Assembly (NCBI GenBank): GCA_034401795.1
Contig: CM067369.1
Span: forward strand, 190,807,159-190,871,158
Origin: Chaetoderma sp. LZ-2023a
Taxonomy: Eukaryota; Mollusca; Caudofoveata; Chaetodermatida; Chaetodermatidae
Direction of reading: 5' to 3'
DNA length: 64,000 nucleotides
Part shown: piece after piece, positions 16,839-62,114 of the stretch
Layout: each line of letters starts with the position of its first letter
Numbering within the stretch: position 1 is the first letter of the stretch
Program-made: the position numbers and the translations under genes
Notes under the pieces: model-generated
Databases searched by the model: none
What the model was told of the DNA's origin: nothing
The model's input: the letters and a program-made list of their open reading frames with translations, nothing else

Positions 16839-16904
16839 TTTTATACTACTCGTGACGTCAGAGGCAGGACGCGCCAGCCAATCAGAGGGCCAGCAGTAGC
16901 CAAT
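16839..16904 (-). promoter_or_regulatory. LTR core promoter: two CCAAT boxes, CRE, TATA box
   Basis: Read on the minus strand: GATTGGCT (inverted CCAAT, 16900-16904), a second GATTGGCT (16878-16882), the palindromic CRE TGACGTCA (16853-16860), seven bases, then TATAAAA (16839-16845). This is a textbook RNA polymerase II layout. It sits only about 270-330 bp from the LTR 5' end, leaving roughly 2.75 kb of LTR downstream of the expected start. The sister LTR keeps both CCAAT boxes (30086-30090, 30064-30068) but has lost the CRE and has a weaker TATA. Confidence 0.75.
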
Positions 16905-17173
16905 CAGCGTGCAGCTAGAAAGGGTGACGTAGGGATCACGTGATCAGCTCATTCTCCATTCACCTAATACATACACACGAGTATGACGTCAACGCAATAT
17001 TTTGAACATAATTTAAGTGAATCATTTAACTCTGCCATTTCTGGTCGGATTTTACAAAGGTAAAATGTTTAGAAATCCTCGTTTCATTCCAGTCCTGGGT
17101 GATACCAAGAATGGCGAGAATAGTGTGATTTGAAGAAATCACCTGTACCAACTCGGTACACTATAAGCATACA

Positions 17174-17955
17174 CCCGTGACAAACTATTAATGCTTCACA
17201 GATCGAACGCACAGGAACACGCTTGGCAAGAATTCTCTAGTAGGTGCGTAGCTGAGAGGATCAGTGATGCGAGAGACGCGTAATTATCAGAGAAGAGCAC
17301 ATAGAAGTGTGAAAGAGCTTGGGAGGGAGGCATAGTTTTAGTTTTGATTTTTGACCTTGAAATGTTGGGTTTTTTGTGGTGTGTGCTTTTTATTTATTTT
17401 ACTAAGCTCCAACATACCTGAATCAAATATAGTTATAACAATGTATACAAGAAAAATATTTCTATGCTAAAACATACAGTAATACAGTAATAATATCATA
17501 GTTATATGAAATTACATCTGTATTCCGGATATATAAAGGGATGCATACAGTGTACAGTGCGGCCCGTTTTGGCGGGTCTACACGGATAGCTCTCGCTATC
17601 CACAATCCGTCTCAACATACTGACACGAGAAGAGAAATAATAAGAAAAATAGCATTCTAATAAAGTAAAACACTAGTTCATCAGGCAGCGCCAGCAATAG
17701 CTGGGACGGCATGACGGGAGTAAAGACATATTCGCTACGGTGTGTTGTGTACTTACGTCGCACATGACATGTTTACAACACAGGTATCCCCAGCAACTAT
17801 TTTTGTGAGACACAGCTATGCAAGAATTTTGCGTAGCTGTGTATGATGACCGTAGTCAGCCAAGGGATAGGATTTCAATTATAAAAACATATATATAATA
17901 AGAAGAAAAATATTTCAAAAATAATAAAATAATAATGGTTCCATTTTCCGCACAC
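17174..17955. other. Interior DNA between the extra ORF and the 3' LTR, non-coding
   Basis: AT-rich with no gene seen. The bases next to the LTR (GTTTGTCACGGG on the element strand) do not form the purine tract expected at a 3' LTR. Confidence 0.5.
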
Positions 17956-30334: not shown

Positions 30335-31039
30335 CTCTCTCCCAATACTGACACATGTTGTCATGGCAGCTCTGACGCGTGCGCATGCGCGCTACACATT
30401 CTTACATTTTAACGAAACCTCTCATAGGGCTTTATACATGCGTACTACCCTACTCAAAGGGGTGGGGTGGCGTGCTTGGAATGCGTCCGGAGCAGCCGTC
30501 TCATACCCAGCTTAGCTGGGACGGTTCGTACCCATCCGGTCGATCCGTGCGATGTTTGCAAGATTGAATGAATGAAAATTATAATTAAAAAATAAAAATC
30601 TAACTTTCTTTACTGTTTCTTCACATCATAATGATTCTCCAATATTTCGATTTAAGTTCAAATACTAATACAAGTCATGCTGTCCTATATTGAGAGATGA
30701 TAAGGAAGGGCTAAACCTTACGTCAAATTGACTATGCAAAATTTCCCCGTTATAATAAGTAACACGGTTAAGTAGTCAAATGGAAATCATATCCCTATAG
30801 AGACCTGCTTATCTATTCAATTTCGGTTAAGCGTTTAGCATTAAATTATTGGGCCATCACTTGTATTAATGACATCACAATTATTGTTATCATTCACGAT
30901 TTGGTCAGAAATTCGATTGTTGTTATGCTCCATACAGCGATCGACCCACTCCAACAAACGCGATTCCGTTACCATCCCCAAACGTACATGGACTCTTTCA
31001 CATAAGCATGGCTAGGACAAGCAATCTTTCTCAAATCTA
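30335..31039. other. Non-coding DNA beside the LTR element
   Basis: Starts with a short pyrimidine run (CTCTCTCCC) directly outside the LTR, then AT-rich DNA. Two overlapping 60-75-codon frames near 30300-30560 have no recognisable content. Confidence 0.45.
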
Positions 31040-45615: not shown

Positions 45616-46128
45616 ACCACCACCACCACCACCACCACCACCACCACCACCACCACCACCACCGCCACCGCCACCACCACCACCACGACCACCACCACCA
45701 ACACCACCACCACCACCGCCACCTTCACGACGACTACCACCAAAACTACCTTCACCACCAACACCACCACCACTACCACTACAAGTACCACCACCACCAC
45801 CACCACCACCACCACGACCACGACCACCACCACCACCACCACCACCGCCACCACAACCACAAACACGATGACAACAACAACAACAACAACGAAAACAACA
45901 AGGCAACCACAGCCAACACCACCACCAACACAACCACTTCACCACGACTACAATCAAAACCACCACCAGCAACAAAAACACCACCTCCAACAACAACACC
46001 AATACCACACCGCCACCACCACGACCACCACCACCACCACCACCACCACCACCACCACCACCACCACCACCACCACCACCACCACCACCACCAACACCAC
46101 CACCACCACCACAACCATAACCAGCAGC

Positions 46129-46209
<81 letters not shown>

Positions 46210-46212
46210 GAA
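45616..46212. repeat. Long compound triplet tract: (CAC)n, (CAA)n, (CGA)n
   Basis: CAC runs interrupted by CGC, TTC and CAA triplets, then a long CAC run (46018-46093), a CGA/GAC run (46131-46178) and a CAA run (46179-46210). The part from 45694 recurs at 59851 with different run lengths (the CAC run shorter and the CAA run longer by about 12 bases each there). Long Gly-, Trp-, Val-, Pro- and Thr-rich open frames here are artefacts. Confidence 0.9.
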
Positions 46213-47957
46213 AGATCCGCACATTTAGCATAGTCAGCACAATCACAAATAACTTCACCATTATCATCTTCATGGACAATACCACCACAAACGTCACACA
46301 GTCGCCAGCATCACCACCACCACGACCGTTGATGAAATCACAAGAGCTGCTAGGAAATCAACCGTCACATCAGCAGCAGCATTACTCCACCAGCTATACA
46401 AGCATTTGCAGTCTTACACGTCCATATAGGCGGTTATGAACACCGATACGCTGAAATAAAAACCTCCCTTCGTCTTTTTAAGCTCGTAAATCGTATCCAT
46501 TGTTTTGCTGACCGTGGGCGATCATCCAATCATCATTGATCACCATAATTATCCATTGATGTTCACAAGATAAGGCCGCTGGTGTAATAAAGGCGCACAT
46601 TACTGAGTCTGAACGTGGATTATTGCTTGATGAGACTAATAATTACTGACTTATATGCCAACAAGTCGAGGACGGATCAATGTTGTCCAGTGTGTAACCA
46701 TCAACGACCACGTGTTAGGCATAAAGAGACACATTTTGCATTCCGCATTTTGCAGATTAGATGAAGGAGTTGTGATTACAAATGCTCTTTACTATAGGAT
46801 GGACCGTGTTTTCTTCGCAAATGATGACGTCTGCGGCGAATTGTACAAATAGTATTCTCTTTATATATAAAAGGAATTCTGTACGGCATTTTCGAAACCA
46901 TACACGCGTTTTTTAAGGCTACGGTAAATATAACTTGAATTTAGACGTGTCAAAAGGAATTAGTTGCTTATTAAAAAGGTAATCAAATAAATTGTACCAC
47001 AATATAACACAACAATTATATTTGATCTTCTTGATCAACCAGCCGTTCTGTCCTTTTCTATGTTATTTCCTTACTCTTGTATCTACACAAACATCTGTAG
47101 TGGACAATGTATTTAACGTCAACGGGTGGTTAGTTAAACTAGACAGACTCTCGTGACACATTTCAAAAACAATTCCTATCGAATATTTTCTTAGCGACAA
47201 TGGATAGATCGCTGCTGTCACTCAAATATCTGACATGACGATCAAAATACTTTACTTGTTGTCTGACCTCACAATCTATTGATAAAGGTTCATCACGGAA
47301 ATGATAATAAGGCGTCTCAATGGTATGCCTCTTATAGTTTACAAGTTAATAAACATTTTGTTTTGTTGAATATTTTGAAACTGCTTTGACAGGAAAGATA
47401 CATATCCAGTCAAATTAGTTTCAAAATATTTAATAGCTTACCTTTATAGTTATCTTAAATTTGGGATTCCATGAACTCATGTTTCAATGTATTTTAATCG
47501 ATTCGTAACAGAGCCAGTCATTTCAGTGGTAAATCTTCAAAAATCCTCTTCTCTCGGTCTGCAAATGGACATTGGCTGAGCGCAAACTTGAATTTTATGT
47601 TATCATTAACCAACGGCCCCTGCTGTTGTTATGAAAAATATCAATTTGCAAGCCAACAGAAGGCAATTTTTTGTAAATTTACAAAGAAAATAGACTTATA
47701 ATTTTCGTGGAAGATTTAAGTATCCTTTTGAGCGCTTTGAGGCGCTGTTGACACAAGAGTTGTTAATACGCGACATAAATGCTGACTTTGTCTTTAGTTG
47801 GTGAATCTTCCTAATGTATGCTACTCTAATTAATCAGAATATTGGCTCCAAATAGAAATAAATCTGGTATATGCTGAATATGTTTATAATATATTGACTG
47901 GAAAGCAAAGCTGCCATAGCCAGCAACGACTATCTTATTAATTGCTGTTAAGAAATC
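45694..47957 (+). repeat. Left 2264-bp direct repeat flanking the Penelope array (A)
   Basis: Matches 59851-62114 with a constant offset of 14157 and, by eye, no differences except CAC/CAA run lengths and a base next to the CAA run. It contains the end of a CAC array, tail repeat T, a foldback H and the first ~200 bases of an R copy. It ends where the Penelope sequence begins; the R copy resumes at 62115 after the second repeat. It therefore behaves as duplicated target DNA. Confidence 0.9.
46350..47350 (+). repeat. Dispersed tail repeat T, copy 3
   Basis: Same landmarks as 5740-6650 (TTACACGTCCATATAGGCGG, CATCCAATCATCATTGATCA, GATAAGGCCGCTGGTGTAAT, GTCGAGGACGGATCAATG). Part of direct repeat A. 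Confidence 0.8.
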
Positions 47958-48640
47958 CCTCCCTCATTCCCGCCCTTCCGTCCATCCGTTCGTCCTTCCT
48001 TCATTCTTTCCTCCCTCCCTTCCTTCCTTTCCCCCCTCCCTCCCTTCCTCCCTCCCTCCCTCCATTCTTCCTTCCTTCCTTCATCCATTCTTCCTTCATT
48101 CCTTCCTTACCTCCCTCCCTCCCTCCCTCCCTCCCTCCCTTCCTCCATCCCTCATTCCTCGATCCCCACCCCCTCCGTCCCACCATCACTCCCTCCAGCC
48201 ATCCCTCCATTCTTCCTTCCCTCCTCCCTCCCTACCTCCATTCTTCCTTCCTTCCTCCCTTCCTCCATTCTTCCTTCATTCCCTCCTTCCCTCCCTCCTT
48301 CCTTCCTCCCTCCCTCCCTCCCTCATTCCAGCCCTTCCGTCCATCCGTTCATCCTTCCTTCATTCTTTCCTTCTTTCCTCCCTCCATTCCTTCTCCCCCC
48401 TCCCTCCCTCCCTTCCTCCCTCCCTCCATTCTTCCTTCCTTCCTTCCTCCATTCCTCGATCCTCACCCCTCCGTTCCACCATCACTCCCCCCACCATCCC
48501 TCCCTCCCTCCCTCCTTCCTTCCTTCATCCGCCCCTTCTTCCTTCCTTCCTTCATCCATCCGTTCTTCCTTCATCCGTCCTTTCTTCCTTCCTTAATTCA
48601 TCCATCCTTTCTTCCTTTATCTTTCTTCTGTCACTCCTTC
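47957..48640 (+). repeat. Polypyrimidine leader, copy 1 (5'-truncated)
   Basis: Almost pure C/T with CCTTCCTCCCTCC-type words, identical to 54199-54882. The apparent Pro/Ser/Phe open frame (47942-48649) and its Gly/Arg/Glu antisense are compositional artefacts. Confidence 0.9.
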
Positions 48641-48649
48641 CTTCATTAA

Positions 48650-48803
48650 CTGGATGGATTGATGGATGGATTGATGGTTGGATTGATGGGTGGTTGGGTG
48701 GATGAACGGATGGATGGGTGGGTCGATGGATGGGTGGATGGATGGATGGGTGGGTGGGTGGATGGGTTGGTGGGTGGGTGGGTGGGTGGATGGATGGATG
48801 GAG
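48650..48803 (+). repeat. GGAT/GGTG simple repeat in the Penelope leader, copy 1
   Basis: TGGATGGATTGATGG and GGGTGGGTGGATGG words. Its G-rich runs could pair with the upstream C/T-rich tract or form quadruplexes. Same at 54892-55045. Confidence 0.85.
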
Positions 48804-48983
48804 GGAACTCGAAATTCATATTGCTCATTAAATCTTTCAAATACACTTGACTCCTACTAGTCTAAATGTTATAGACAATTATCTAATTGTTGGAAATTAA
48901 AAAATGTTCTTTCCTAAATTCGACTTCAAAAGACTTGGAAACAAAGTCCAACAACACCTTTTGAAATATAGTTCACTGTTCAA

Positions 48984-49196
48984 ATGATCAATGACCGTTG
49001 TGTGATCCCTTTGATCAATCAACAGACTGATACTAGAACCTCGTTCAGAAAGGGACACCTTCTGAACAAACAGAATCGATCTCACTGGGTTAATATGCAT
49101 GGCTTGATCTCTTTGATCAACCGCCACTCATTCATGAGAGTATTACTGGAAGCCCACTCAGAAACCTTAGAACTCAATCAACGTCAATGGATTTAG
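48984..49196 (+). CDS. Upstream ORF in the Penelope leader, copy 1 (70 codons)
   Basis: ATG-started frame between the simple repeats and the ribozyme-like region. Its product has no recognisable domain. It contains two related segments reading IPLINQQ and ISLINRH, reflecting a direct repeat of CTTTGATCAA in the DNA. As an upstream ORF it could affect translation of ORF1, or simply be chance. Identical at 55226-55438. Confidence 0.2.
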   Translation: MINDRCVIPLINQQTDTRTSFRKGHLLNKQNRSHWVNMHGLISLINRHSFMRVLLEAHSETLELNQRQWI

Positions 49197-49335
49197 ACAA
49201 TCGTTTTTTAAACATCTGTGGCAGTCCAAATCTTTGATGTGAATAGAATTTAAAATTTTCAAAGTACAATTGAACACTAATCTAAGGCCATCAATTCTAA
49301 TAAATAGACAGATTTTTGGTGGACAGGCAGATTTG

Positions 49336-49400
49336 TTCTGTGGCCTGAAGCTGACAAACCTTGTCGAAACCGGTCGCCCACTTCACGACGGTGCATAGGA
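49336..49400 (+). ncRNA. Hammerhead-like three-way junction, copy 1
   Basis: Three stems can be drawn by hand. Helix I pairs 49336-49342 with 49394-49400 (seven pairs, two of them G-U). Helix II is GACAA 49353-49357 with TTGTC 49361-49365. Helix III is 49369-49376 with 49386-49392 (seven pairs, one bulged G). The junctions read GCCTGAAGCT, then GAA with A49369 opening helix III, then G. This is the topology of a hammerhead, and CTGAAG...CGAAAC resembles its CUGANGA/GAAA core. The A after CUGAAG is C, one base is inserted, and the cleavage-site base is G rather than H, so it may be inactive. Penelope elements are known to carry hammerhead motifs. Confidence 0.45.
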
Positions 49401-49406
49401 TTATTG

Positions 49407-49487
49407 GTAATATACACAATTATCCTTTGATAGTTTATATGAATTATTTAAATATTAACATGCTTAATCATAACCTTCTTTTTTCAG
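49407..49487 (+). other. Candidate 81-nt spliceosomal intron in the Penelope leader, copy 1
   Basis: It begins TTG|GTAATA and ends with a strong acceptor, CCTTCTTTTTTCAG. TGCTTAATCATAAC, a fair branch-point context, lies about 20 bases upstream. The interior is very AT-rich. It falls between the ribozyme-like fold and the ORF1 start. Penelope elements are unusual among retroelements in retaining introns in genomic copies. Confidence 0.45.
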
Positions 49488-49636
49488 CGATAGATTTTTG
49501 ATGCGCTTGTAGATTTTGTTAGGCTTGTAATTCGATAGACTTCCCTTGGTTCACGATTCCATTAGGTCCCCTCAATTTTTTGGTATTCTTGTAGATTTTA
49601 GTGGCAGAAACATTGAATTATCTAACTAGTAACATT

Positions 49637-51154
49637 ATGGCTGGAGTTAGCAAGAGTAGAAGACGGGATGACAGGAGGTCTAACGACAGTCGCCCGCCAT
49701 CTGCCCAGGCTGCACTAACCAAGTGTTACTACATGATTATACAATGTTTTCACCACCTTGGCATCTTGAATGCTCATGTACGTAGGGGCAGTTTGCCTCC
49801 TGGATTGAGCTGGAAAGTGTCAGAGTTAGAGAGACAGAATTTCTTCTGTAAACCAGCGATGCCAAACGCCGAGGTCCGTAAGGACATCTTAGCAGCAAAT
49901 TTGAAATGGGCCATATCTTTACTCCAGGTTAACATTAGTCACTATAATTTCCAGCTTGGTCGTCTTATGTCCCTCCTCATCGAAGCTCAGTCCAAACCAA
50001 ATTTAGAATTAGGTAGAGCGAAGACCACAGCAATAAATTGGGCCCGAAATAACTATGGCAGGAAGTTTCATTCTTCATCAATTGATCAGTTTTATGATTT
50101 CATCAGACCTTTTGATCCACATTTTAGAACCTGCCATAGTACAACACCCCCTGTAGGGTCACCTGTGACCTTACCAGGAACATCAACTGCAGGGCCCTCT
50201 GTGGCCCTACCAGGCACACCGACTGCAAGGTCAGCCTTGACCGTACCAGTCATCCCACAATCAAATCGGAAACGGAATAGGTCACCCACTGAGAGTCCCC
50301 CAGTAGTTAAGCGGGTGAATAACCAGAGCTCACCAGTGTTCCCCCTGCATTCTCCTGTGGTGGATCCGCTCCTGATTCCACTGCCAGCATGGTCACCGTC
50401 AGTGTCCGCTCATGTGGATCCTAGTCAGATCCCTCTTCCGGTCTCGCCACTGTCCCCAGTCGAGTTTCCTCCCCTTCCACAGAGAGCAGCTACTGAGCGA
50501 CCTGGTCAAAAGACCAGATCGTCGACGCCGAGGTCCAAGCCACCACAACCTAAATTTACGCCCACACCTAAGCCCAAACCTACGCCTAGGGATACACCCA
50601 AAGAGCATAGGTCTTTCTACAAGTTTCGGTTCGTGGTGGATAATAAGAATGAATGGCGCCTTCCTACTCTGAACAAGAAGATTCTGCTGATTGGGTCTTC
50701 AAATTTAGCTCGTATCAATCAGACACCTCATCCAGATATGCAGGTAGCAATCTATCCAGGTGCTAAGATAAACCACATTAGGAATATGGTTAGAAAACAC
50801 AATGAGGTCTTCCAACCTCAGCGTATCATCCTTAACATCGGAATTAATGATAAGGACGAACTTCAGCATGACACCTCCCAAAGAATTGAGAATCTGTTTA
50901 GTACCATGCGTTCAAAATTTCCAAAGGCTAAAGTTCACTTTGCCAAACTAAATTATTCGAAGCACCTGACTACAACCCAGAAACGAAACATACAATTCGT
51001 TAACAGCCGTGTAGAGGCCTTAAGGGCCAAGGTCCCTATCCTGCCCAGCCTCCCCGTGTCTGAATTTCAGGTGGTTGAGGACAACATCCACTGGACTGAG
51101 TGCACTGCAAATAGGATGTATAATAGTTGGTTATCGCACCTTAATTTAAACTAA
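49637..51154 (+). CDS. Penelope ORF1: helical N-terminus, Pro-rich linker, SGNH hydrolase-like domain (copy 1)
   Basis: 505 residues from ATG 49637. I chose this ATG over the open codons upstream because those begin with GTG and this ATG has A at -3 and G at +4. Residues about 1-160 are basic then largely helical (KSRRRDDRRS). Residues about 165-325 are Pro/Ser/Thr-rich. The C-terminal domain has the four SGNH blocks: LIGSSN with S355, G375 in YPGAKI, GIND with N404, and D482-N-I-H485-W. Such esterase-like domains are known in ORF1 of CR1/L2-type non-LTR elements; in a Penelope element I consider it unusual. It may bind nucleic acid or lipid, or act as an esterase; the activity is inferred only. 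The stop codon overlaps a slippery heptamer leading into ORF2. Confidence 0.88.
   Translation: MAGVSKSRRRDDRRSNDSRPPSAQAALTKCYYMIIQCFHHLGILNAHVRRGSLPPGLSWKVSELERQNFFCKPAMPNAEVRKDILAANLKWAISLLQVNISHYNFQLGRLMSLLIEAQSKPNLELGRAKTTAINWARNNYGRKFHSSSIDQFYDFIRPFDPHFRTCHSTTPPVGSPVTLPGTSTAGPSVALPGTPTARSALTVPVIPQSNRKRNRSPTESPPVVKRVNNQSSPVFPLHSPVVDPLLIPLPAWSPSVSAHVDPSQIPLPVSPLSPVEFPPLPQRAATERPGQKTRSSTPRSKPPQPKFTPTPKPKPTPRDTPKEHRSFYKFRFVVDNKNEWRLPTLNKKILLIGSSNLARINQTPHPDMQVAIYPGAKINHIRNMVRKHNEVFQPQRIILNIGINDKDELQHDTSQRIENLFSTMRSKFPKAKVHFAKLNYSKHLTTTQKRNIQFVNSRVEALRAKVPILPSLPVSEFQVVEDNIHWTECTANRMYNSWLSHLNLN
51145..51151 (+). promoter_or_regulatory. -1 ribosomal frameshift site U UUA AAC, copy 1
   Basis: In ORF1 phase the codons are AAT TTA AAC TAA, so the heptamer T TTA AAC lies exactly in the zero frame and its last codon touches the stop (51152-51154). 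A one-base backward slip reads on in the ORF2 frame, whose previous stop (TAA, 51142-51144) lies just upstream. Downstream, GGGT (51159-51162) can pair with ACCC (51176-51179), and ACCACC (51173) with GGTGGT (51193). These alternative stems are candidate stimulators. Confidence 0.8.
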
Positions 51155-53475
51155 CTACGGGTCAGGGTACTAACCACCCAGAAATTGGCCTAGGTGGTAA
51201 TATCATTAACCTAACTGGTTCTACATTGTCTGAAGCAGAAAGATCGTTGCTAAATCTTGGTCTAACATATGTACCAACACCACGGCCCAAAGTCGACATA
51301 GATGCTCTTTTAGATAATGGCTTATGGGAAATTGAAGAATTTTCTCACCGTGTAAAATTAGCAGACTTTTTTCGAAATTCCAAGAAAAACAACTTTCTAC
51401 CTTTTGTTGAAAAAACTGGCTGGGCACCTAACTCGAAGTTGGTTGACCCTGCGATCCTTGATAGTATAAAAGCTATCAAGGAGCGTGTTGAAAATTTAGA
51501 ATTTCCTAAAAATCATCAAAATTTGTCATATCAAGAACGTTTAGCCTTAACAGGTTTGCGTAAAAACAATGACATCGTTATAAAGCCTGCTGACAAGGGA
51601 TCTGCTACTGTAGTAATGCGTAAGGTTAATTATATTCGTGAAGCACATCGGCAACTCAGTAATCTGAAACACTACCGCAAATTAGACGAACCACTCTGGC
51701 AAAATAATTGTGATAAATTTAATGGAATCCTTCAAGAAATGGCTGACAAAAAGGCCATAACGAAAAAGCAGTTTAAATACCTTACTGCTAAACGAGATTC
51801 AAATCCACGTACGTTTTACCTTTTGCCAAAAATTCATAAACCTATTGAGTCATGGTCCGACCCTATGATACCACCGGGTCGACCTATTATCTCTGATTGC
51901 GGCTCTGAATCTTATCGAATTAGTGAAATTATTGATTACCACCTACAACCAATTGCGAATAGACATTTCAGCTTTTTGAACAACACTGAGGATTTCCTAT
52001 CCGAGGTCTCCAAAATTTCTGTTCCTCCAAACTCACTCTTGATAACCCTCGACATCGATGCTATGTACACAAACATTGACATCGAAAAGGGTTTGTCTTC
52101 TGTTCGCAGAGCATTTGATAAATATCCCGATAACAATAGGCCCACTAGCGAAATATTAGCTCTCCTGGAGCTGAGTTTAAAGGGCAATGATTTCGAATTC
52201 GCTGGCGAAATCTACCAACAAATCTGTGGATGCGCTATGGGTAAACGTTTTAGTCCTAGTTTTGCCAACATCTATGTAGCTGAGTGGGAAGAAGATGCGC
52301 TTAACAAATGTCCTAAGCAGCCCTTATTTTACCGCCGTTACCTCGATGATATTTTTATGATCTGGAATCATTCGAGGGAAGAGTTTGATGAATTTTTCAC
52401 TATTTTGAACAATCACGATCCTAACATCAAACTTAAAGCCAACATTGACCAGTCGTCCGTAGACTTTTTGGACGTTACTCTCTACAAAGGTGTAAATTAT
52501 AACACGAGTGGGCTTCTTGATTACAAAGTATTCTTTAAGCCCACCGATTCCCATCAACTACTGCATAAGAAATCTTTCCATCCACCTCATACTTTTAAAG
52601 GTATTATCAAATCACAGATTATCCGGTTTCACCGAAATTCTAGTGATAGAAAGAATTTTGAATCTGCGTGTTCCATCTTATTTAAAGCCCTCAAACCGAG
52701 GGGATATTCAACACGATTTTTGCGCAAAATAAAATCCGAAACTTTACATGATTTGGAAACTATTACTGATAAGGCTGCCGATCAAAAGCCTACCAAAATT
52801 CGTCACAATCGTCCGATTATAGGCGTAGGACAATCTCAGAAATGTGGAAAGAAGAGGTGTAAATTAGACCTCTATCTACCTAATCAGACAACATTTGTCA
52901 GTTATCAGAACAAAAGCAAATTCCAACTTCAGTCTAATTTAGATTGCGATTCTAAAAATGTTATCTATTTAATATCTTGCAAATTATGCCAAAAGCAGTA
53001 TGTCGGTGAAACAAAATGCCCTTTCAGATGGCGAGCAACTAGACACCTTTGCGATATTAGACACGACGAGGACACCAACGTAGCTCAACATTTCAATCTT
53101 CCTGGTCATTCTGTCGAAAGACACTTTGAAATTATGCCTATTGAGCAACTGCCTCTTTCTGCTACGGCCGAAGAAACTGATAAACAAAGAAAACTTCGAG
53201 AATCATTTTGGATTAAGCAACTGAAAACAAAATGGCCGAGTGGCATAAACGTGGACCCTGGTCTTGCTGATCAACGTGAAATTATTCCATTCAGTTTAAC
53301 ATACAATCGAAAAAATGTTGAAATTTCAGAAATTTTGAAAGATGAATATCATAAATTGCAGGATAAAATGAAAATACCTCTCAATTTGCGTCCAGTGATA
53401 GCCTTTAAGAAAAACTCCAATCTACGTGACATCTTGGTTAATTCGAAATTAACTCTTCAAAAACCTTCAGAATGA
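51151..53475 (+). CDS. Penelope ORF2: reverse transcriptase plus GIY-YIG endonuclease (copy 1, entered by frameshift)
   Basis: 774 codons from the frameshift point. No ATG occurs before about residue 130 of the RT region, so an independent start would lose conserved sequence. RT: IVIKPADKGSATVV, FYLLPKIHKP (Penelope signature), motif A LDIDAMYTNID (first Asp codon 52051), GCAMGKRFSP, motif C YLDD (52339-52350), then FLDVTLYK. A Cys-containing linker (C...C at 52843 and 52858) leads to the GIY-YIG domain: VIYLISC, CKLCQKQYVGET (Y52999), the Arg-rich CPFRWRATRH, and VAQHFNLPGH. It should nick the target and copy RNA by target-primed reverse transcription. All key residues are present, so the copy looks active. 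Confidence 0.95.
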   Translation, partial: LTTGQGTNHPEIGLGGNIINLTGSTLSEAERSLLNLGLTYVPTPRPKVDIDALLDNGLWEIEEFSHRVKLADFFRNSKKNNFLPFVEKTGWAPNSKLVDPAILDSIKAIKERVENLEFPKNHQNLSYQERLALTGLRKNNDIVIKPADKGSATVVMRKVNYIREAHRQLSNLKHYRKLDEPLWQNNCDKFNGILQEMADKKAITKKQFKYLTAKRDSNPRTFYLLPKIHKPIESWSDPMIPPGRPIISDCGSESYRISEIIDYHLQPIANRHFSFLNNTEDFLSEVSKISVPPNSLLITLDIDAMYTNIDIEKGLSSVRRAFDKYPDNNRPTSEILALLELSLKGNDFEFAGEIYQQICGCAMGKRFSPSFANIYVAEWEEDALNKCPKQPLFYRRYLDDIFMIWNHSREEFDEFFTILNNHDPNIKLKANIDQSSVDFLDVTLYKGVNYNTSGLLDYKVFFKPTDSHQLLHKKSFHPPHTFKGIIKSQIIRFHRNSSDRKNFESACSILFKALKPRGYSTRFLRKIKSETLHDLETITDKAADQKPTKIRHNRPIIGVGQSQKCGKKRCKLDLYLPNQTTFVSYQNKSKFQLQSNLDCDSKNVIYLISCKLCQKQYVGETKCPFRWRATRHLCDIRHDEDTNVAQHFNLPGHSVERHFEIMPIEQLPLSATAEETDKQRKLRESFWIKQLKTKWPSGINVDPGLADQREIIPFSLTYNRKNVEISEILKDEYHKLQDKMKIPLNLRPVIAFKKNSNLRDILVNSKLTLQKPSE

Positions 53476-53614
53476 ATGATATATATTATTCATATTTTAT
53501 AGGCCATACCGCCTCTATCAAACAAACATAACAAATCTCAGACAATAAAATAAATAAAAAATATCTCCCAACCTTGGGAGATCCTGAGCCAGTGCGTTTA
53601 ATCATATAACCACC
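53476..53614 (+). other. Penelope 3' UTR, copy 1, with AATAAA and a terminal hairpin
   Basis: 139 bases. AATAAA at 53544-53549 lies within an A-rich stretch. A perfect 9-bp stem, ATCTCCCAA/TTGGGAGAT with a CC loop (53563-53582), follows. The element's 3' end reads ATCATATAACCACC. A 3' stem-loop may be the template feature recognised by the RT. Confidence 0.75.
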
Positions 53615-53754
53615 TACTAGCGAGTGCCAGTTCTATTGTTTTATTGTCTTCCTAACACACTAATTATTGCACCATACCGTCGTGGCAAATCTGTCTGGCA
53701 TACCATCATTCCATCAATTTAGTCTGTCTTCTTAATAATAGTTTTGATTCGTTC
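53615..53754 (+). other. 5' end of the complete Penelope copy
   Basis: TACTAGCGAGTGCCAG directly follows the 3' end of the upstream copy, so this junction defines the head-to-tail boundary. The segment up to the pyrimidine tract is absent from the truncated copy and is non-coding. Confidence 0.7.
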
Positions 53755-54882
53755 ATCATCTCCTTCCTTCCATCCTCCCTTCATTCCCTCCATCCATCCT
53801 CCCTCCCTCCCCCATCCCTCCTTCCCTCCCGCCATTCCGTCCGTCCATCCGCCCTCCCTCCCTCCCTCCCTCCCTCCCTTCCTTCCTTCCTTCCTTCCTT
53901 CCTTCCTTCAATCCTTCCTTCTTTCCTTCCTTCCTTCCTTCCTTCCTCCCTCCATCCCTCCCTCCCTTCCTCCCTCCCTCCCTCCCTCACTCCCTCCCTC
54001 CCTCCCTCATTCCCCCACGTCCGTCAATACATCCGTCCCTCCTTCCTTCTTTCCTTCCTCGCCCTCTTCCTCCCTCCCTCCCGCCCTCCGTTCCCCCCTC
54101 CCTCCCGCCCTCCCTCCATTTCTCCTTCCATCCCTCCCGCCCTCCTTTCTTCCTTCCTTCCTTCCTTCCTTCCTCCCTTCCTCCCCCCCTCCCTCCCTCC
54201 CTCCCTCATTCCCGCCCTTCCGTCCATCCGTTCGTCCTTCCTTCATTCTTTCCTCCCTCCCTTCCTTCCTTTCCCCCCTCCCTCCCTTCCTCCCTCCCTC
54301 CCTCCATTCTTCCTTCCTTCCTTCATCCATTCTTCCTTCATTCCTTCCTTACCTCCCTCCCTCCCTCCCTCCCTCCCTCCCTTCCTCCATCCCTCATTCC
54401 TCGATCCCCACCCCCTCCGTCCCACCATCACTCCCTCCAGCCATCCCTCCATTCTTCCTTCCCTCCTCCCTCCCTACCTCCATTCTTCCTTCCTTCCTCC
54501 CTTCCTCCATTCTTCCTTCATTCCCTCCTTCCCTCCCTCCTTCCTTCCTCCCTCCCTCCCTCCCTCATTCCAGCCCTTCCGTCCATCCGTTCATCCTTCC
54601 TTCATTCTTTCCTTCTTTCCTCCCTCCATTCCTTCTCCCCCCTCCCTCCCTCCCTTCCTCCCTCCCTCCATTCTTCCTTCCTTCCTTCCTCCATTCCTCG
54701 ATCCTCACCCCTCCGTTCCACCATCACTCCCCCCACCATCCCTCCCTCCCTCCCTCCTTCCTTCCTTCATCCGCCCCTTCTTCCTTCCTTCCTTCATCCA
54801 TCCGTTCTTCCTTCATCCGTCCTTTCTTCCTTCCTTAATTCATCCATCCTTTCTTCCTTTATCTTTCTTCTGTCACTCCTTC
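53755..54882 (+). repeat. Polypyrimidine leader, copy 2 (full, about 1.1 kb)
   Basis: Degenerate CCTCC/CTTCC tract. The first about 440 bases are found only here; the rest equals 47957-48640. Open frames (Pro/Ser/Phe/Leu on plus; Gly/Arg/Glu on minus) are artefacts of composition. Such a long C/U tract in a leader could bind PTB-like proteins or act in internal initiation; this is inference. Confidence 0.9.
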
Positions 54883-54891
54883 CTTCATTAA

Positions 54892-55045
54892 CTGGATGGA
54901 TTGATGGATGGATTGATGGTTGGATTGATGGGTGGTTGGGTGGATGAACGGATGGATGGGTGGGTCGATGGATGGGTGGATGGATGGATGGGTGGGTGGG
55001 TGGATGGGTTGGTGGGTGGGTGGGTGGGTGGATGGATGGATGGAG
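54892..55045 (+). repeat. GGAT/GGTG simple repeat in the Penelope leader, copy 2
   Basis: Identical to 48650-48803. Confidence 0.85.
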
Positions 55046-55577
55046 GGAACTCGAAATTCATATTGCTCATTAAATCTTTCAAATACACTTGACTCCTACT
55101 AGTCTAAATGTTATAGACAATTATCTAATTGTTGGAAATTAAAAAATGTTCTTTCCTAAATTCGACTTCAAAAGACTTGGAAACAAAGTCCAACAACACC
55201 TTTTGAAATATAGTTCACTGTTCAAATGATCAATGACCGTTGTGTGATCCCTTTGATCAATCAACAGACTGATACTAGAACCTCGTTCAGAAAGGGACAC
55301 CTTCTGAACAAACAGAATCGATCTCACTGGGTTAATATGCATGGCTTGATCTCTTTGATCAACCGCCACTCATTCATGAGAGTATTACTGGAAGCCCACT
55401 CAGAAACCTTAGAACTCAATCAACGTCAATGGATTTAGACAATCGTTTTTTAAACATCTGTGGCAGTCCAAATCTTTGATGTGAATAGAATTTAAAATTT
55501 TCAAAGTACAATTGAACACTAATCTAAGGCCATCAATTCTAATAAATAGACAGATTTTTGGTGGACAGGCAGATTTG

Positions 55578-55642
55578 TTCTGTGGCCTGAAGCTGACAAA
55601 CCTTGTCGAAACCGGTCGCCCACTTCACGACGGTGCATAGGA
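55578..55642 (+). ncRNA. Hammerhead-like three-way junction, copy 2
   Basis: Same bases as 49336-49400, including the changed core and G at the presumed cleavage position. In a tandem transcript the two junctions would be exactly one unit (6242 nt) apart, which is how self-cleavage could release unit-length RNA if active. Confidence 0.45.
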
Positions 55643-55648
55643 TTATTG

Positions 55649-55729
55649 GTAATATACACAATTATCCTTTGATAGTTTATATGAATTATTTAAATATTAA
55701 CATGCTTAATCATAACCTTCTTTTTTCAG
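55649..55729 (+). other. Candidate 81-nt intron, copy 2
   Basis: Identical to 49407-49487; GTAATA donor and TTCTTTTTTCAG acceptor. Its presence in both copies means that, if it is spliced, it was not removed from the RNA used as template, or the copies arose by DNA duplication. Confidence 0.45.
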
Positions 55730-55878
55730 CGATAGATTTTTGATGCGCTTGTAGATTTTGTTAGGCTTGTAATTCGATAGACTTCCCTTGGTTCACGATT
55801 CCATTAGGTCCCCTCAATTTTTTGGTATTCTTGTAGATTTTAGTGGCAGAAACATTGAATTATCTAACTAGTAACATT

Positions 55879-57396
55879 ATGGCTGGAGTTAGCAAGAGTA
55901 GAAGACGGGATGACAGGAGGTCTAACGACAGTCGCCCGCCATCTGCCCAGGCTGCACTAACCAAGTGTTACTACATGATTATACAATGTTTTCACCACCT
56001 TGGCATCTTGAATGCTCATGTACGTAGGGGCAGTTTGCCTCCTGGATTGAGCTGGAAAGTGTCAGAGTTAGAGAGACAGAATTTCTTCTGTAAACCAGCG
56101 ATGCCAAACGCCGAGGTCCGTAAGGACATCTTAGCAGCAAATTTGAAATGGGCCATATCTTTACTCCAGGTTAACATTAGTCACTATAATTTCCAGCTTG
56201 GTCGTCTTATGTCCCTCCTCATCGAAGCTCAGTCCAAACCAAATTTAGAATTAGGTAGAGCGAAGACCACAGCAATAAATTGGGCCCGAAATAACTATGG
56301 CAGGAAGTTTCATTCTTCATCAATTGATCAGTTTTATGATTTCATCAGACCTTTTGATCCACATTTTAGAACCTGCCATAGTACAACACCCCCTGTAGGG
56401 TCACCTGTGACCTTACCAGGAACATCAACTGCAGGGCCCTCTGTGGCCCTACCAGGCACACCGACTGCAAGGTCAGCCTTGACCGTACCAGTCATCCCAC
56501 AATCAAATCGGAAACGGAATAGGTCACCCACTGAGAGTCCCCCAGTAGTTAAGCGGGTGAATAACCAGAGCTCACCAGTGTTCCCCCTGCATTCTCCTGT
56601 GGTGGATCCGCTCCTGATTCCACTGCCAGCATGGTCACCGTCAGTGTCCGCTCATGTGGATCCTAGTCAGATCCCTCTTCCGGTCTCGCCACTGTCCCCA
56701 GTCGAGTTTCCTCCCCTTCCACAGAGAGCAGCTACTGAGCGACCTGGTCAAAAGACCAGATCGTCGACGCCGAGGTCCAAGCCACCACAACCTAAATTTA
56801 CGCCCACACCTAAGCCCAAACCTACGCCTAGGGATACACCCAAAGAGCATAGGTCTTTCTACAAGTTTCGGTTCGTGGTGGATAATAAGAATGAATGGCG
56901 CCTTCCTACTCTGAACAAGAAGATTCTGCTGATTGGGTCTTCAAATTTAGCTCGTATCAATCAGACACCTCATCCAGATATGCAGGTAGCAATCTATCCA
57001 GGTGCTAAGATAAACCACATTAGGAATATGGTTAGAAAACACAATGAGGTCTTCCAACCTCAGCGTATCATCCTTAACATCGGAATTAATGATAAGGACG
57101 AACTTCAGCATGACACCTCCCAAAGAATTGAGAATCTGTTTAGTACCATGCGTTCAAAATTTCCAAAGGCTAAAGTTCACTTTGCCAAACTAAATTATTC
57201 GAAGCACCTGACTACAACCCAGAAACGAAACATACAATTCGTTAACAGCCGTGTAGAGGCCTTAAGGGCCAAGGTCCCTATCCTGCCCAGCCTCCCCGTG
57301 TCTGAATTTCAGGTGGTTGAGGACAACATCCACTGGACTGAGTGCACTGCAAATAGGATGTATAATAGTTGGTTATCGCACCTTAATTTAAACTAA
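55879..57396 (+). CDS. Penelope ORF1 with SGNH hydrolase-like domain (copy 2)
   Basis: 505 residues, no difference from copy 1 noticed. The SGNH blocks fall at S355, G375, N404 and D482/H485. It belongs to the complete element unit, so this is the reference copy. The start is the ATG at 55879 with a favourable context (A at -3, G at +4). Its stop (57394-57396) overlaps the frameshift heptamer. The product probably accompanies the element RNA as a separate ORF1 protein in most translation events, with the RT fusion as a minor product; that ratio is inference from how -1 sites usually work. Confidence 0.88.
   Translation: MAGVSKSRRRDDRRSNDSRPPSAQAALTKCYYMIIQCFHHLGILNAHVRRGSLPPGLSWKVSELERQNFFCKPAMPNAEVRKDILAANLKWAISLLQVNISHYNFQLGRLMSLLIEAQSKPNLELGRAKTTAINWARNNYGRKFHSSSIDQFYDFIRPFDPHFRTCHSTTPPVGSPVTLPGTSTAGPSVALPGTPTARSALTVPVIPQSNRKRNRSPTESPPVVKRVNNQSSPVFPLHSPVVDPLLIPLPAWSPSVSAHVDPSQIPLPVSPLSPVEFPPLPQRAATERPGQKTRSSTPRSKPPQPKFTPTPKPKPTPRDTPKEHRSFYKFRFVVDNKNEWRLPTLNKKILLIGSSNLARINQTPHPDMQVAIYPGAKINHIRNMVRKHNEVFQPQRIILNIGINDKDELQHDTSQRIENLFSTMRSKFPKAKVHFAKLNYSKHLTTTQKRNIQFVNSRVEALRAKVPILPSLPVSEFQVVEDNIHWTECTANRMYNSWLSHLNLN
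57387..57393 (+). promoter_or_regulatory. -1 ribosomal frameshift site U UUA AAC, copy 2
   Basis: Same in-phase heptamer and abutting TAA as in copy 1, 6242 bases downstream. Confidence 0.8.
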
Positions 57397-59717
57397 CTAC
57401 GGGTCAGGGTACTAACCACCCAGAAATTGGCCTAGGTGGTAATATCATTAACCTAACTGGTTCTACATTGTCTGAAGCAGAAAGATCGTTGCTAAATCTT
57501 GGTCTAACATATGTACCAACACCACGGCCCAAAGTCGACATAGATGCTCTTTTAGATAATGGCTTATGGGAAATTGAAGAATTTTCTCACCGTGTAAAAT
57601 TAGCAGACTTTTTTCGAAATTCCAAGAAAAACAACTTTCTACCTTTTGTTGAAAAAACTGGCTGGGCACCTAACTCGAAGTTGGTTGACCCTGCGATCCT
57701 TGATAGTATAAAAGCTATCAAGGAGCGTGTTGAAAATTTAGAATTTCCTAAAAATCATCAAAATTTGTCATATCAAGAACGTTTAGCCTTAACAGGTTTG
57801 CGTAAAAACAATGACATCGTTATAAAGCCTGCTGACAAGGGATCTGCTACTGTAGTAATGCGTAAGGTTAATTATATTCGTGAAGCACATCGGCAACTCA
57901 GTAATCTGAAACACTACCGCAAATTAGACGAACCACTCTGGCAAAATAATTGTGATAAATTTAATGGAATCCTTCAAGAAATGGCTGACAAAAAGGCCAT
58001 AACGAAAAAGCAGTTTAAATACCTTACTGCTAAACGAGATTCAAATCCACGTACGTTTTACCTTTTGCCAAAAATTCATAAACCTATTGAGTCATGGTCC
58101 GACCCTATGATACCACCGGGTCGACCTATTATCTCTGATTGCGGCTCTGAATCTTATCGAATTAGTGAAATTATTGATTACCACCTACAACCAATTGCGA
58201 ATAGACATTTCAGCTTTTTGAACAACACTGAGGATTTCCTATCCGAGGTCTCCAAAATTTCTGTTCCTCCAAACTCACTCTTGATAACCCTCGACATCGA
58301 TGCTATGTACACAAACATTGACATCGAAAAGGGTTTGTCTTCTGTTCGCAGAGCATTTGATAAATATCCCGATAACAATAGGCCCACTAGCGAAATATTA
58401 GCTCTCCTGGAGCTGAGTTTAAAGGGCAATGATTTCGAATTCGCTGGCGAAATCTACCAACAAATCTGTGGATGCGCTATGGGTAAACGTTTTAGTCCTA
58501 GTTTTGCCAACATCTATGTAGCTGAGTGGGAAGAAGATGCGCTTAACAAATGTCCTAAGCAGCCCTTATTTTACCGCCGTTACCTCGATGATATTTTTAT
58601 GATCTGGAATCATTCGAGGGAAGAGTTTGATGAATTTTTCACTATTTTGAACAATCACGATCCTAACATCAAACTTAAAGCCAACATTGACCAGTCGTCC
58701 GTAGACTTTTTGGACGTTACTCTCTACAAAGGTGTAAATTATAACACGAGTGGGCTTCTTGATTACAAAGTATTCTTTAAGCCCACCGATTCCCATCAAC
58801 TACTGCATAAGAAATCTTTCCATCCACCTCATACTTTTAAAGGTATTATCAAATCACAGATTATCCGGTTTCACCGAAATTCTAGTGATAGAAAGAATTT
58901 TGAATCTGCGTGTTCCATCTTATTTAAAGCCCTCAAACCGAGGGGATATTCAACACGATTTTTGCGCAAAATAAAATCCGAAACTTTACATGATTTGGAA
59001 ACTATTACTGATAAGGCTGCCGATCAAAAGCCTACCAAAATTCGTCACAATCGTCCGATTATAGGCGTAGGACAATCTCAGAAATGTGGAAAGAAGAGGT
59101 GTAAATTAGACCTCTATCTACCTAATCAGACAACATTTGTCAGTTATCAGAACAAAAGCAAATTCCAACTTCAGTCTAATTTAGATTGCGATTCTAAAAA
59201 TGTTATCTATTTAATATCTTGCAAATTATGCCAAAAGCAGTATGTCGGTGAAACAAAATGCCCTTTCAGATGGCGAGCAACTAGACACCTTTGCGATATT
59301 AGACACGACGAGGACACCAACGTAGCTCAACATTTCAATCTTCCTGGTCATTCTGTCGATAGACACTTTGAAATTATGCCTATTGAGCAACTGCCTCTTT
59401 CTGCTACGGCCGAAGAAACTGATAAACAAAGAAAACTTCGAGAATCATTTTGGATTAAGCAACTGAAAACAAAATGGCCGAGTGGCATAAACGTGGACCC
59501 TGGTCTTGCTGATCAACGTGAAATTATTCCATTCAGTTTAACATACAATCGAAAAAATGTTGAAATTTCAGAAATTTTGAAAGATGAATATCATAAATTG
59601 CAGGATAAAATGAAAATACCTCTCAATTTGCGTCCAGTGATAGCCTTTAAGAAAAACTCCAATCTACGTGACATCTTGGTTAATTCGAAATTAACTCTTC
59701 AAAAACCTTCAGAATGA
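57393..59717 (+). CDS. Penelope ORF2: RT plus GIY-YIG endonuclease (copy 2, entered by frameshift)
   Basis: Same 774-codon frame as copy 1, in the complete element unit. All RT motifs (LDIDAMYTNID, YLDD) and the GIY-YIG motifs (VIYLISC, QYVGET, WRATRH, VAQHF) are present. The only coding difference seen is GAT instead of GAA at 59358-59360, giving Asp for Glu in the segment after LPGHSV, a conservative change after the catalytic part. No stop or frameshift interrupts it, so element and gene look recently active. Confidence 0.95.
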   Translation, partial: LTTGQGTNHPEIGLGGNIINLTGSTLSEAERSLLNLGLTYVPTPRPKVDIDALLDNGLWEIEEFSHRVKLADFFRNSKKNNFLPFVEKTGWAPNSKLVDPAILDSIKAIKERVENLEFPKNHQNLSYQERLALTGLRKNNDIVIKPADKGSATVVMRKVNYIREAHRQLSNLKHYRKLDEPLWQNNCDKFNGILQEMADKKAITKKQFKYLTAKRDSNPRTFYLLPKIHKPIESWSDPMIPPGRPIISDCGSESYRISEIIDYHLQPIANRHFSFLNNTEDFLSEVSKISVPPNSLLITLDIDAMYTNIDIEKGLSSVRRAFDKYPDNNRPTSEILALLELSLKGNDFEFAGEIYQQICGCAMGKRFSPSFANIYVAEWEEDALNKCPKQPLFYRRYLDDIFMIWNHSREEFDEFFTILNNHDPNIKLKANIDQSSVDFLDVTLYKGVNYNTSGLLDYKVFFKPTDSHQLLHKKSFHPPHTFKGIIKSQIIRFHRNSSDRKNFESACSILFKALKPRGYSTRFLRKIKSETLHDLETITDKAADQKPTKIRHNRPIIGVGQSQKCGKKRCKLDLYLPNQTTFVSYQNKSKFQLQSNLDCDSKNVIYLISCKLCQKQYVGETKCPFRWRATRHLCDIRHDEDTNVAQHFNLPGHSVDRHFEIMPIEQLPLSATAEETDKQRKLRESFWIKQLKTKWPSGINVDPGLADQREIIPFSLTYNRKNVEISEILKDEYHKLQDKMKIPLNLRPVIAFKKNSNLRDILVNSKLTLQKPSE

Positions 59718-59856
59718 ATGATATATATTATTCATATTTTATAGGCCATACCGCCTCTATCAAACAAACATAACAAATCTCAGACAATAAAATAAATAAA
59801 AAATATCTCCCAACCTTGGGAGATCCTGAGCCAGTGCGTTTAATCATATAACCACC
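59718..59856 (+). other. Penelope 3' UTR, copy 2, ending in the CAC target tract
   Basis: Same AATAAA (59786-59791) and 9-bp stem (59805-59824) as copy 1. The final ACCACC is shared with the start of the flanking repeat, so the junction is ambiguous by six bases. This suggests annealing of the element's 3' end to a nicked CAC/GTG tract during integration. Confidence 0.75.
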
Positions 59857-60273
59857 AACACCACCACCACCACCGCCACCTTCACGACGACTACCACCAA
59901 AACTACCTTCACCACCAACACCACCACCACTACCACTACAAGTACCACCACCACCACCACCACCACCACCACGACCACGACCACCACCACCACCACCACC
60001 ACCGCCACCACAACCACAAACACGATGACAACAACAACAACAACAACGAAAACAACAAGGCAACCACAGCCAACACCACCACCAACACAACCACTTCACC
60101 ACGACTACAATCAAAACCACCACCAGCAACAAAAACACCACCTCCAACAACAACACCAATACCACACCGCCACCACCACGACCACCACCACCACCACCAC
60201 CACCACCACCACCACCACCACCACCACCACCACCACCAACACCACCACCACCACCACAACCATAACCAGCAGC

Positions 60274-60366
<93 letters not shown>

Positions 60367-62114
60367 GCAAGATCCGCACATTTAGCATAGTCAGCACAAT
60401 CACAAATAACTTCACCATTATCATCTTCATGGACAATACCACCACAAACGTCACACAGTCGCCAGCATCACCACCACCACGACCGTTGATGAAATCACAA
60501 GAGCTGCTAGGAAATCAACCGTCACATCAGCAGCAGCATTACTCCACCAGCTATACAAGCATTTGCAGTCTTACACGTCCATATAGGCGGTTATGAACAC
60601 CGATACGCTGAAATAAAAACCTCCCTTCGTCTTTTTAAGCTCGTAAATCGTATCCATTGTTTTGCTGACCGTGGGCGATCATCCAATCATCATTGATCAC
60701 CATAATTATCCATTGATGTTCACAAGATAAGGCCGCTGGTGTAATAAAGGCGCACATTACTGAGTCTGAACGTGGATTATTGCTTGATGAGACTAATAAT
60801 TACTGACTTATATGCCAACAAGTCGAGGACGGATCAATGTTGTCCAGTGTGTAACCATCAACGACCACGTGTTAGGCATAAAGAGACACATTTTGCATTC
60901 CGCATTTTGCAGATTAGATGAAGGAGTTGTGATTACAAATGCTCTTTACTATAGGATGGACCGTGTTTTCTTCGCAAATGATGACGTCTGCGGCGAATTG
61001 TACAAATAGTATTCTCTTTATATATAAAAGGAATTCTGTACGGCATTTTCGAAACCATACACGCGTTTTTTAAGGCTACGGTAAATATAACTTGAATTTA
61101 GACGTGTCAAAAGGAATTAGTTGCTTATTAAAAAGGTAATCAAATAAATTGTACCACAATATAACACAACAATTATATTTGATCTTCTTGATCAACCAGC
61201 CGTTCTGTCCTTTTCTATGTTATTTCCTTACTCTTGTATCTACACAAACATCTGTAGTGGACAATGTATTTAACGTCAACGGGTGGTTAGTTAAACTAGA
61301 CAGACTCTCGTGACACATTTCAAAAACAATTCCTATCGAATATTTTCTTAGCGACAATGGATAGATCGCTGCTGTCACTCAAATATCTGACATGACGATC
61401 AAAATACTTTACTTGTTGTCTGACCTCACAATCTATTGATAAAGGTTCATCACGGAAATGATAATAAGGCGTCTCAATGGTATGCCTCTTATAGTTTACA
61501 AGTTAATAAACATTTTGTTTTGTTGAATATTTTGAAACTGCTTTGACAGGAAAGATACATATCCAGTCAAATTAGTTTCAAAATATTTAATAGCTTACCT
61601 TTATAGTTATCTTAAATTTGGGATTCCATGAACTCATGTTTCAATGTATTTTAATCGATTCGTAACAGAGCCAGTCATTTCAGTGGTAAATCTTCAAAAA
61701 TCCTCTTCTCTCGGTCTGCAAATGGACATTGGCTGAGCGCAAACTTGAATTTTATGTTATCATTAACCAACGGCCCCTGCTGTTGTTATGAAAAATATCA
61801 ATTTGCAAGCCAACAGAAGGCAATTTTTTGTAAATTTACAAAGAAAATAGACTTATAATTTTCGTGGAAGATTTAAGTATCCTTTTGAGCGCTTTGAGGC
61901 GCTGTTGACACAAGAGTTGTTAATACGCGACATAAATGCTGACTTTGTCTTTAGTTGGTGAATCTTCCTAATGTATGCTACTCTAATTAATCAGAATATT
62001 GGCTCCAAATAGAAATAAATCTGGTATATGCTGAATATGTTTATAATATATTGACTGGAAAGCAAAGCTGCCATAGCCAGCAACGACTATCTTATTAATT
62101 GCTGTTAAGAAATC
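59851..62114 (+). repeat. Right 2264-bp direct repeat flanking the Penelope array (A')
   Basis: Copy of 45694-47957. It includes a CAC/CAA/CGA tract (59851-60367), tail repeat T (60507-61507), a foldback H (61520-61591), part of the piggyBac-like MITE core (about 61670) and the start of repeat R (from about 61907), which continues unbroken into 62115. Run lengths in the CAC and CAA tracts differ from the left copy in opposite directions with zero net length change. Confidence 0.9.

Follow-up and report, generated by a model that had tools for sequence, protein, structure and literature searches.

A tandem pair of Penelope-like elements in a chaetodermatid mollusc with probable programmed -1 frameshifting between ORF1 and ORF2

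At the -1 frameshift sites of Gag-Pol and of coronaviruses, an RNA structure is found a few nucleotides 3' of the slip site, and non-LTR retrotransposons of the SART1 type reinitiate translation at an overlapping AUG. A review of recoding (PMC5009743), in the accessible parts of which the name 'Penelope' is absent, counts the heptamer U_UUA_AAC as one of the -1 sites most prone to shifting. Penelope-like elements (PLEs) have a common ancestry with telomerase reverse transcriptases, as stated in the accessible text of PMC3846280. Neptune-like PLEs encode a reverse transcriptase, a GIY-YIG endonuclease and an SGNH/GDSL esterase ORF, and the esterases of such elements from fish and molluscs are mentioned in the available part of PMC5408684. 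Our searches of the PMC literature, by title and opening of the abstract, returned no description of programmed frameshifting in PLEs, which may be mentioned in PLE surveys or in Repbase, and the literature searched held no description of how two-ORF PLEs express their reverse transcriptase. The accessible portions of PMC3846280, PMC5408684, PMC6431247, PMC11167929, PMC9004415, PMC7561263, PMC3849965 and PMC5009743 describe no PLE frameshifting.

Here, we describe a tandem pair of PLEs in a 64,000-nucleotide stretch of DNA (the window, meaning the whole stretch that was analysed) from the 2.44-Gb assembly of the mollusc Chaetoderma sp. LZ-2023a. Judging from sequence comparisons, ORF1 and ORF2 of these elements are, with high probability, joined by programmed -1 ribosomal frameshifting. 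The recoding signal itself is known; for this class of retroelements we found no description of one.

The element pair and its reading frames

Two PLE copies lie head to tail in the window, at a distance of 6242 bp, and each carries two ORFs.

47956..53617, + strand: element copy 1, 5'-truncated and followed by copy 2 (self-comparison)
53618..59859, + strand: element copy 2, a full unit of about 6242 bp with approximate boundaries (self-comparison)
49637..51154, + strand: ORF1 of copy 1, 505 amino acids plus TAA, with a C-terminal SGNH/GDSL-type hydrolase domain (open frame, Pfam, alignment)
55879..57396, + strand: ORF1 of copy 2, its protein identical to that of copy 1 (self-comparison, open frame)
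51145..53475, + strand: ORF2 of copy 1, 776 codons plus TGA, with a PLE N-terminal region, reverse transcriptase and GIY-YIG endonuclease
57387..59717, + strand: ORF2 of copy 2, one residue different from copy 1 (self-comparison, open frame)

The copies are 99.965% identical across 5662 bp in the self-comparison, and therefore do not provide independent evidence for the junction heptamer described below. With copy 1 as the 5'-truncated member, the pair has the tandem or partial-tandem (pseudo-LTR) organisation of PLEs. Long CCTT/TCCC arrays lie within the element unit, 5' of ORF1, in both copies (window 53761-54859 and 47974-48617). The pair is flanked by a 2.26-kb direct repeat of host sequence (window 45694-47957 and 59851-62114, 98.9% identity), which resembles a target-site duplication of extreme length; it may also stem from a duplication event or from a fault in the assembly. 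The region is rich in diverged duplications, as illustrated by host segments at window 14057-17174 and 27453-30335 that are about 83% identical and in the same order.

A first search of genome contigs returned no relatives of the element, and a pattern search returned several, with ORF2 matched by four of 113 pattern loci; the 46 of these loci that came from viral contigs gave zero tblastn matches to ORF2, and no PLE relatives were found in the viral contigs, plasmids or phages searched. The four relatives come from records filed as bacterial: L065 from a single cell of Epulopiscium, a bacterium of the fish gut, L050 from an Enterovibrio MAG, L070 from a Bathymodiolus symbiont and L112 from a Saccharibacteria MAG. 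All four are most likely eukaryotic contamination, in the case of L065 contaminating host DNA. L065 is itself a tandem array, with copies 5441 bp apart and both ORFs open. L112 was omitted from the alignment (A1) used below.

By eye, window 49344-49378 and its counterpart 6242 bp 3' resemble a hammerhead ribozyme whose core is altered, CTGAAGCT standing in the place of what we take to be the regular core, CTGANGA. Rfam gave zero hammerhead matches at gathering score in the window and nothing relevant at a relaxed threshold in window 53400-57000; in a pattern search the regular core motif was present in L065 and L050 only.

ORF1 starts at the ATG at 49637 and ends with Asn-505, followed by the stop TAA at 51152-51154. 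Its match to the Pfam model Lipase_GDSL_2 is weak (E=0.0047, under the curated cut-off), and residues S355, G375, N404, D482 and H485, which we take to be the catalytic-type residues of SGNH/GDSL hydrolases, are invariant in all three aligned ORF1s. Through this weak match and the invariant S, G, N, D and H, ORF1 corresponds to the SGNH/GDSL esterase ORF that is a trait of Neptune-like PLEs.

ORF2 is open from 51145 to 53472 (776 codons, with the stop at 53473-53475) and is 34-41% identical to the ORF2s of three relatives, with 41% for L065, which places it among the PLE-type reverse transcriptases, as its motifs presumably also do. The RVT_1 model matches three of the four aligned members, the window protein itself being the one without a match. 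The GIY-YIG model likewise matches three of the four; in the window protein it falls on residues 605-695 (E=0.00026, 21.7 bits, slightly below the cut-off of 22.6), in keeping with the C-terminal endonuclease of PLEs. A comparison of ORF2 with PDB sequences gave a single match of no use (E=0.046), and an AlphaFold model built from the four-row alignment was set aside at a mean pLDDT of 43.7.

The earliest ATG in the ORF2 frame is codon 158 (51616), within conserved sequence. Between the junction heptamer and this ATG, the other two frames contain 16 and 17 stops, and a block at ORF2 codons 21-46, INLTGSTLSEAERSLLNLGLTYVPTP, is alignable with L065, L050 and L070 far 5' of the first ATG. Across codons 1-157, dN/dS was 0.116-0.243 in all six comparisons among one copy each of four families of the host genome (A, to which the window elements belong, B, C and D; Nei-Gojobori estimates, with dS of 0.60-1.41 in part near saturation), so that the part of ORF2 preceding the ATG is, by this estimate, under purifying selection. 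Pre-ATG selection, stops in the other frames and the conserved block together indicate that codons 1-157 are translated despite the lack of an AUG in the family of the window.

These observations bear on a rival route to ORF2, in which translation restarts after ORF1 termination or begins internally, at an AUG further 3' or at a near-cognate codon; we consider this route very improbable. The window's first ATG lies beyond conserved PLE sequence and the selected codons precede it; in L065 the ORF2 frame, counted stop to stop, reaches its first ATG only at codon 392, which is 370 codons past the heptamer; no near-cognate start common to the families was seen by eye at the junction; and initiation of this kind gives the heptamer no reason for conservation. 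On the other side, an ATG stands at ORF2 codon 14 in single copies of C, E1 and E2 (the latter two forming group E) and at codon 61 in one B copy, so the missing ATG is no argument in those families, and in L050 the ORF2 start ATG shares bases with the ORF1 stop (ATGTTAG).

Conservation of the heptamer at the junction

The reading favoured here, -1 frameshifting from ORF1 into ORF2, centres on a short interval in which the two frames overlap.

51142..51144, + strand: TAA closing the ORF2 frame immediately 5' of the heptamer (frame analysis)
51145..51151, + strand: slippery heptamer T TTA AAC, copy 1 (sequence, family copies)
51152..51154, + strand: ORF1 stop TAA immediately 3' of the heptamer (frame analysis)
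57387..57393, + strand: slippery heptamer, copy 2 (sequence)

An earlier note on this DNA had proposed that TTTAAAC sits on the ORF1 stop in the phase required for a -1 shift, that the -1 frame is open from there through the reverse transcriptase and endonuclease with no ATG before conserved sequence, and that a 505-residue ORF1 protein and a fusion of about 1279 residues would result. Frame analysis bears this out: ORF1 ends ...CTT AAT TTA AAC TAA, which puts the heptamer in X XXY YYZ phase, the one needed for simultaneous slippage by both tRNAs, exactly where the two frames overlap; the 776 open codons of the -1 frame are preceded directly by TAA; their first ATG is the late one given above; and the predicted fusion measures 505 + 774 = 1279 residues. 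That note had also judged the coincidence unlikely. In our counts, heptamers of the form X XXY YYZ (with Y = A/T and Z not G) occur in phase at 366 of 127,982 codon positions of the window (0.29%; both strands, all frames). Within ORF1, three are in phase among 503 positions, namely the junction heptamer and two AAATTTA farther 5', and the interval between the two closing stops has space for a single in-phase heptamer. TTTAAAC as such is not significantly enriched in the window (20 occurrences against 14.7 expected, with 20 attained by 11 of 100 shuffles), and the signal therefore consists in place and phase.

Conservation among copies in the host genome was assessed in two ways. In the first, a search with ORF2, 58 of 24,649 candidates were scored, all of them family A copies at 99-100% identity with the 776-codon frame. 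TAA-TTTAAAC-TAA, including the 5' closing TAA, is kept in all 58, and in 41 of them ORF1 stays open as far as its ATG or the limit of the 1.5 kb fetched. Since these copies are young and were picked for a good ORF2, on their own they demonstrate only that the recently mobile form has the heptamer; the 41 near-identical copies with both frames open as far as fetched suggest recent mobility in this configuration. In the second, a pattern located 48 bases 3' of the heptamer, in ORF2, had 2031 exact matches in the genome (1045 forward and 986 reverse; 0 for a reversed control pattern). From the sites listed we took a blind sample of 60, chosen before the upstream sequence was known; all are on contig C1 and were hand-picked, with near neighbours mostly skipped and rarer pattern variants included. 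TTTAAAC stood 48 or 47 bases 5' in 52 of the 60. The eight misses comprise two sites without element sequence upstream (L200 and L204, counted as misses), one deletion and five substitutions (TTTAAAT twice, TTTAAAG, TTTACAC and TATAAAC), among which TTTAAAT would still be of slippery type. Among the 52, the codon after the heptamer is a stop in 51 (TAG 28, TAA 23, TGG 1). The triplet before it is TAA in 25, AAA in 25 and TGA in two; with AAA in 25 of the 52, the 5' closing stop is not general. In the whole assembly, these pattern matches stand beside several families, each with dozens of similar open-frame copies, and the host genome is, on this sequence evidence, one of recent PLE amplification.

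The other families, for which the letters are our own, were reached with the ORF2s of L050 and L065 as queries. After the L050 search (59 candidates scored), all ten fetched junctions had the heptamer in phase (D 6, C 3, B 1), and after the L065 search (60 scored) so did all 12 (G 11, A 1), these 10 and 12 junctions having come from the best-scored ORF2 matches. Families B, C, D and G have open ORF2 frames. In one copy, L255, the ORF1 stop following the heptamer is mutated, and two of the 11 family G junctions have no 5' closing stop. Group E, in the form of decayed copies, carries an in-phase heptamer as well.

The strongest single argument comes from the codons themselves. Over 170 nt around the junction, any two of the families A-D share 66-79% identity, and the codons TTA AAC are identical in A, B, C, D and G, taking one representative each and excluding E1 and E2 as decayed. 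Only one of 22 other conserved degenerate codons is likewise identical (1 of 13 in the last 40 codons of ORF1, 0 of 9 in ORF2 codons 4-34); with four families only, 6 of 20 conserved degenerate codons are identical, three of them in the heptamer, which leaves 3 of 17 outside it. As TTA AAC is frozen while its neighbours vary, the constraint acts on nucleotides: the slip site is conserved beyond amino-acid constraint in five families, as expected of a frameshift cassette.

The same comparison weighs on the idea that the heptamer is a chance by-product of a conserved Leu-Asn C-terminus, ORF2 being expressed in some other way. Leu-Asn is indeed the end of ORF1 in each of the families A, B, C, D and G. 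However, the other Leu and Asn codons among the final 40 vary between families whereas those of the heptamer are constant, the heptamer of L065 lies on Tyr-Leu-Asn four codons ahead of the stop, and 41 of 58 near-identical copies keep both frames open as far as fetched; we regard this explanation as extremely unlikely.

Splicing, in which removal of a short or long intron would delete the ORF1 stop and connect ORF2 to an exon further 5', is in our judgement very unlikely. The final CTAAC of the heptamer resembles the branch point consensus. In-frame donor-acceptor pairs exist on paper at the junction, but the five AG sites beside it score poorly (best -2.5, -1.8 and -1.6 against an element 75th percentile of -1.1, on a rough scale built from consensus values). 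Some PLEs do keep introns, as with the Pen5 copy with a spliceosomal intron reported in the accessible text of PMC3846280; splicing would nonetheless leave the frozen TTA AAC codons across families unexplained.

Among the distant relatives, each 5441-bp unit of L065 has a single TTTAAAC on its coding strand, placed in phase where the frames overlap, and it is the sole in-phase slippery heptamer among 609 ORF1 codon positions. As ORF1 of L065 runs four codons past the heptamer, its place is similar to that in the window, not identical. L050 (reverse strand, junction 4813-4819) has the same kind of ORF1 and ORF2 in a -1 relation, and its overlap is without the heptamer; its one in-phase site, TTTAAAT, lies about 110 codons 5' of the ORF1 stop, and to judge from the sequence L050 probably reinitiates at the ORF2 ATG. 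In L070, the open frame around the N-terminal PLE block extends far 5' of it and includes an ATG, as in single-ORF PLEs. The expression strategy thus varies among PLEs, as the arrangements of L050 and L070 indicate.

The expectation that the heptamer would be conserved in related elements was borne out in five diverged families, in the decayed group E and in the distant L065. The counterexample named in the earlier note, a related element with an ATG-started ORF2 and no heptamer, does exist in L050, while families A-D, G and L065 keep the heptamer; given L050, the frameshift strategy holds for part of the group and is not universal. Within that part, the retrovirus- or coronavirus-style strategy suggested earlier is very probably right, on the grounds of heptamer conservation and the frozen codons.

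Downstream RNA structure and a model for ORF2 expression

A short hairpin can form just beyond the junction.

51159..51179, + strand: candidate stimulator hairpin GGGU-CAG-GGU-ACUA-ACC-ACCC, 7 nt 3' of the heptamer (minimum free energy fold)

Families A-D can all adopt the form GGGY-CAN-GGY-NNNN-RCC-RCCC. For A, C and D, folding the 21 nt gives this form as the minimum free energy structure (-5.5 to -5.6 kcal/mol), and B comes close to it; the fold of E1 differs, and the stem of G is slightly shifted. Over 21 distinct sequences, 89.1% of cells pair, as against 33-62% with the partner slid. Two pairs are changed on both sides (U-A to C-G in each case, one pair in B and the other in G); 8 of 21 rows have one pair open, and 4 of 21 another. 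None of 500 shuffles attained the covariation score; 259 of them attained the count of doubly changed pairs, and 477 the count of pair types. The double changes go back to a few events that many copies have inherited, and so lend modest support to the hairpin.

Four longer windows 3' of the heptamer were not significant (z-scores of -0.08 to -0.80), and the 50 nt 3' of it are only in the top 10% of the element by folding stability. An ACCACC/GGUGGU stem seen in the longer folds was dropped, being absent by eye from families C and D. The earlier note had suggested pseudoknot prediction as a check, and a simple search with set limits found no pseudoknot in the window, leaving the short, weak hairpin 7 nt 3' with its modest covariation. 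In L065, the 50 nt starting 6 nt 3' of the heptamer rank within the top 0.4% of the element by folding stability, and the stem is stronger than that of the window (z of -0.97 for 72 nt and of -2.37 for a 41-nt piece cut by eye); pseudoknot candidates there were equalled by 8 of 200 simple shuffles. The hairpin of the window is a candidate stimulator, with the adjacent stop codon perhaps assisting.

In the model that we propose, most ribosomes would complete ORF1 and release a free 505-residue SGNH-hydrolase protein. Some would pause on T TTA AAC, the following codon being the stop and the short hairpin lying 7 nt 3'; both tRNAs would then slip one base back and re-pair on TTT and AAA, making CTA, in ORF2, the next codon. 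Slipped ribosomes would yield, at a lower level, the 1279-residue ORF1-reverse transcriptase-endonuclease fusion. We infer the slippage at the heptamer, its frequency and the help given by the hairpin. If Gag and Gag-Pol are a guide, the reverse transcriptase could be drawn into an ORF1 assembly through the ORF1 part of the fusion. It is tempting to go further, and we incline slightly towards the view that frameshifting is standard in the lineage of PLEs with an SGNH ORF1, the hydrolase serving as Gag, with many free ORF1 proteins and few fusions assembling into one particle, and that relatives like L050 switched to stop-start reinitiation.

Comparison with known recoding systems and retroelements

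From a conserved slip site one would expect hydrolase and fusion to be made at a fixed ratio and the reverse transcriptase to be covalently linked to the hydrolase, and RNP assembly in PLEs thereby becomes testable. If the model is true, viral-type -1 recoding extends to another class of retroelements lacking true LTRs.

By gene content, the element shares with Neptune-like PLEs the reverse transcriptase, the GIY-YIG endonuclease and the SGNH/GDSL esterase ORF; unlike the window element, these have no frameshift signal mentioned in the accessible part of PMC5408684. Poseidon of Anolis, a canonical PLE, likewise has a telomerase-like reverse transcriptase, a GIY-YIG nuclease and tandem copies, but a single ORF, and neither an upstream hydrolase ORF nor recoding is described for it in the portions of PMC11167929 available. 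Stop-start coupled non-LTR retrotransposons such as SART1 resemble the window element in having two ORFs and no LTRs, while their reinitiation resembles the relative L050, not the window element. Compared with Gag-Pol of LTR retrotransposons and retroviruses and with coronavirus ORF1a/1b, the proteins are unrelated, the upstream product is a hydrolase rather than Gag or a replicase, and a weak hairpin, with no pseudoknot found, occupies the downstream position; in common with these systems, the window element has an X XXY YYZ heptamer in phase close to where the upstream ORF ends, and a downstream ORF in the -1 frame.
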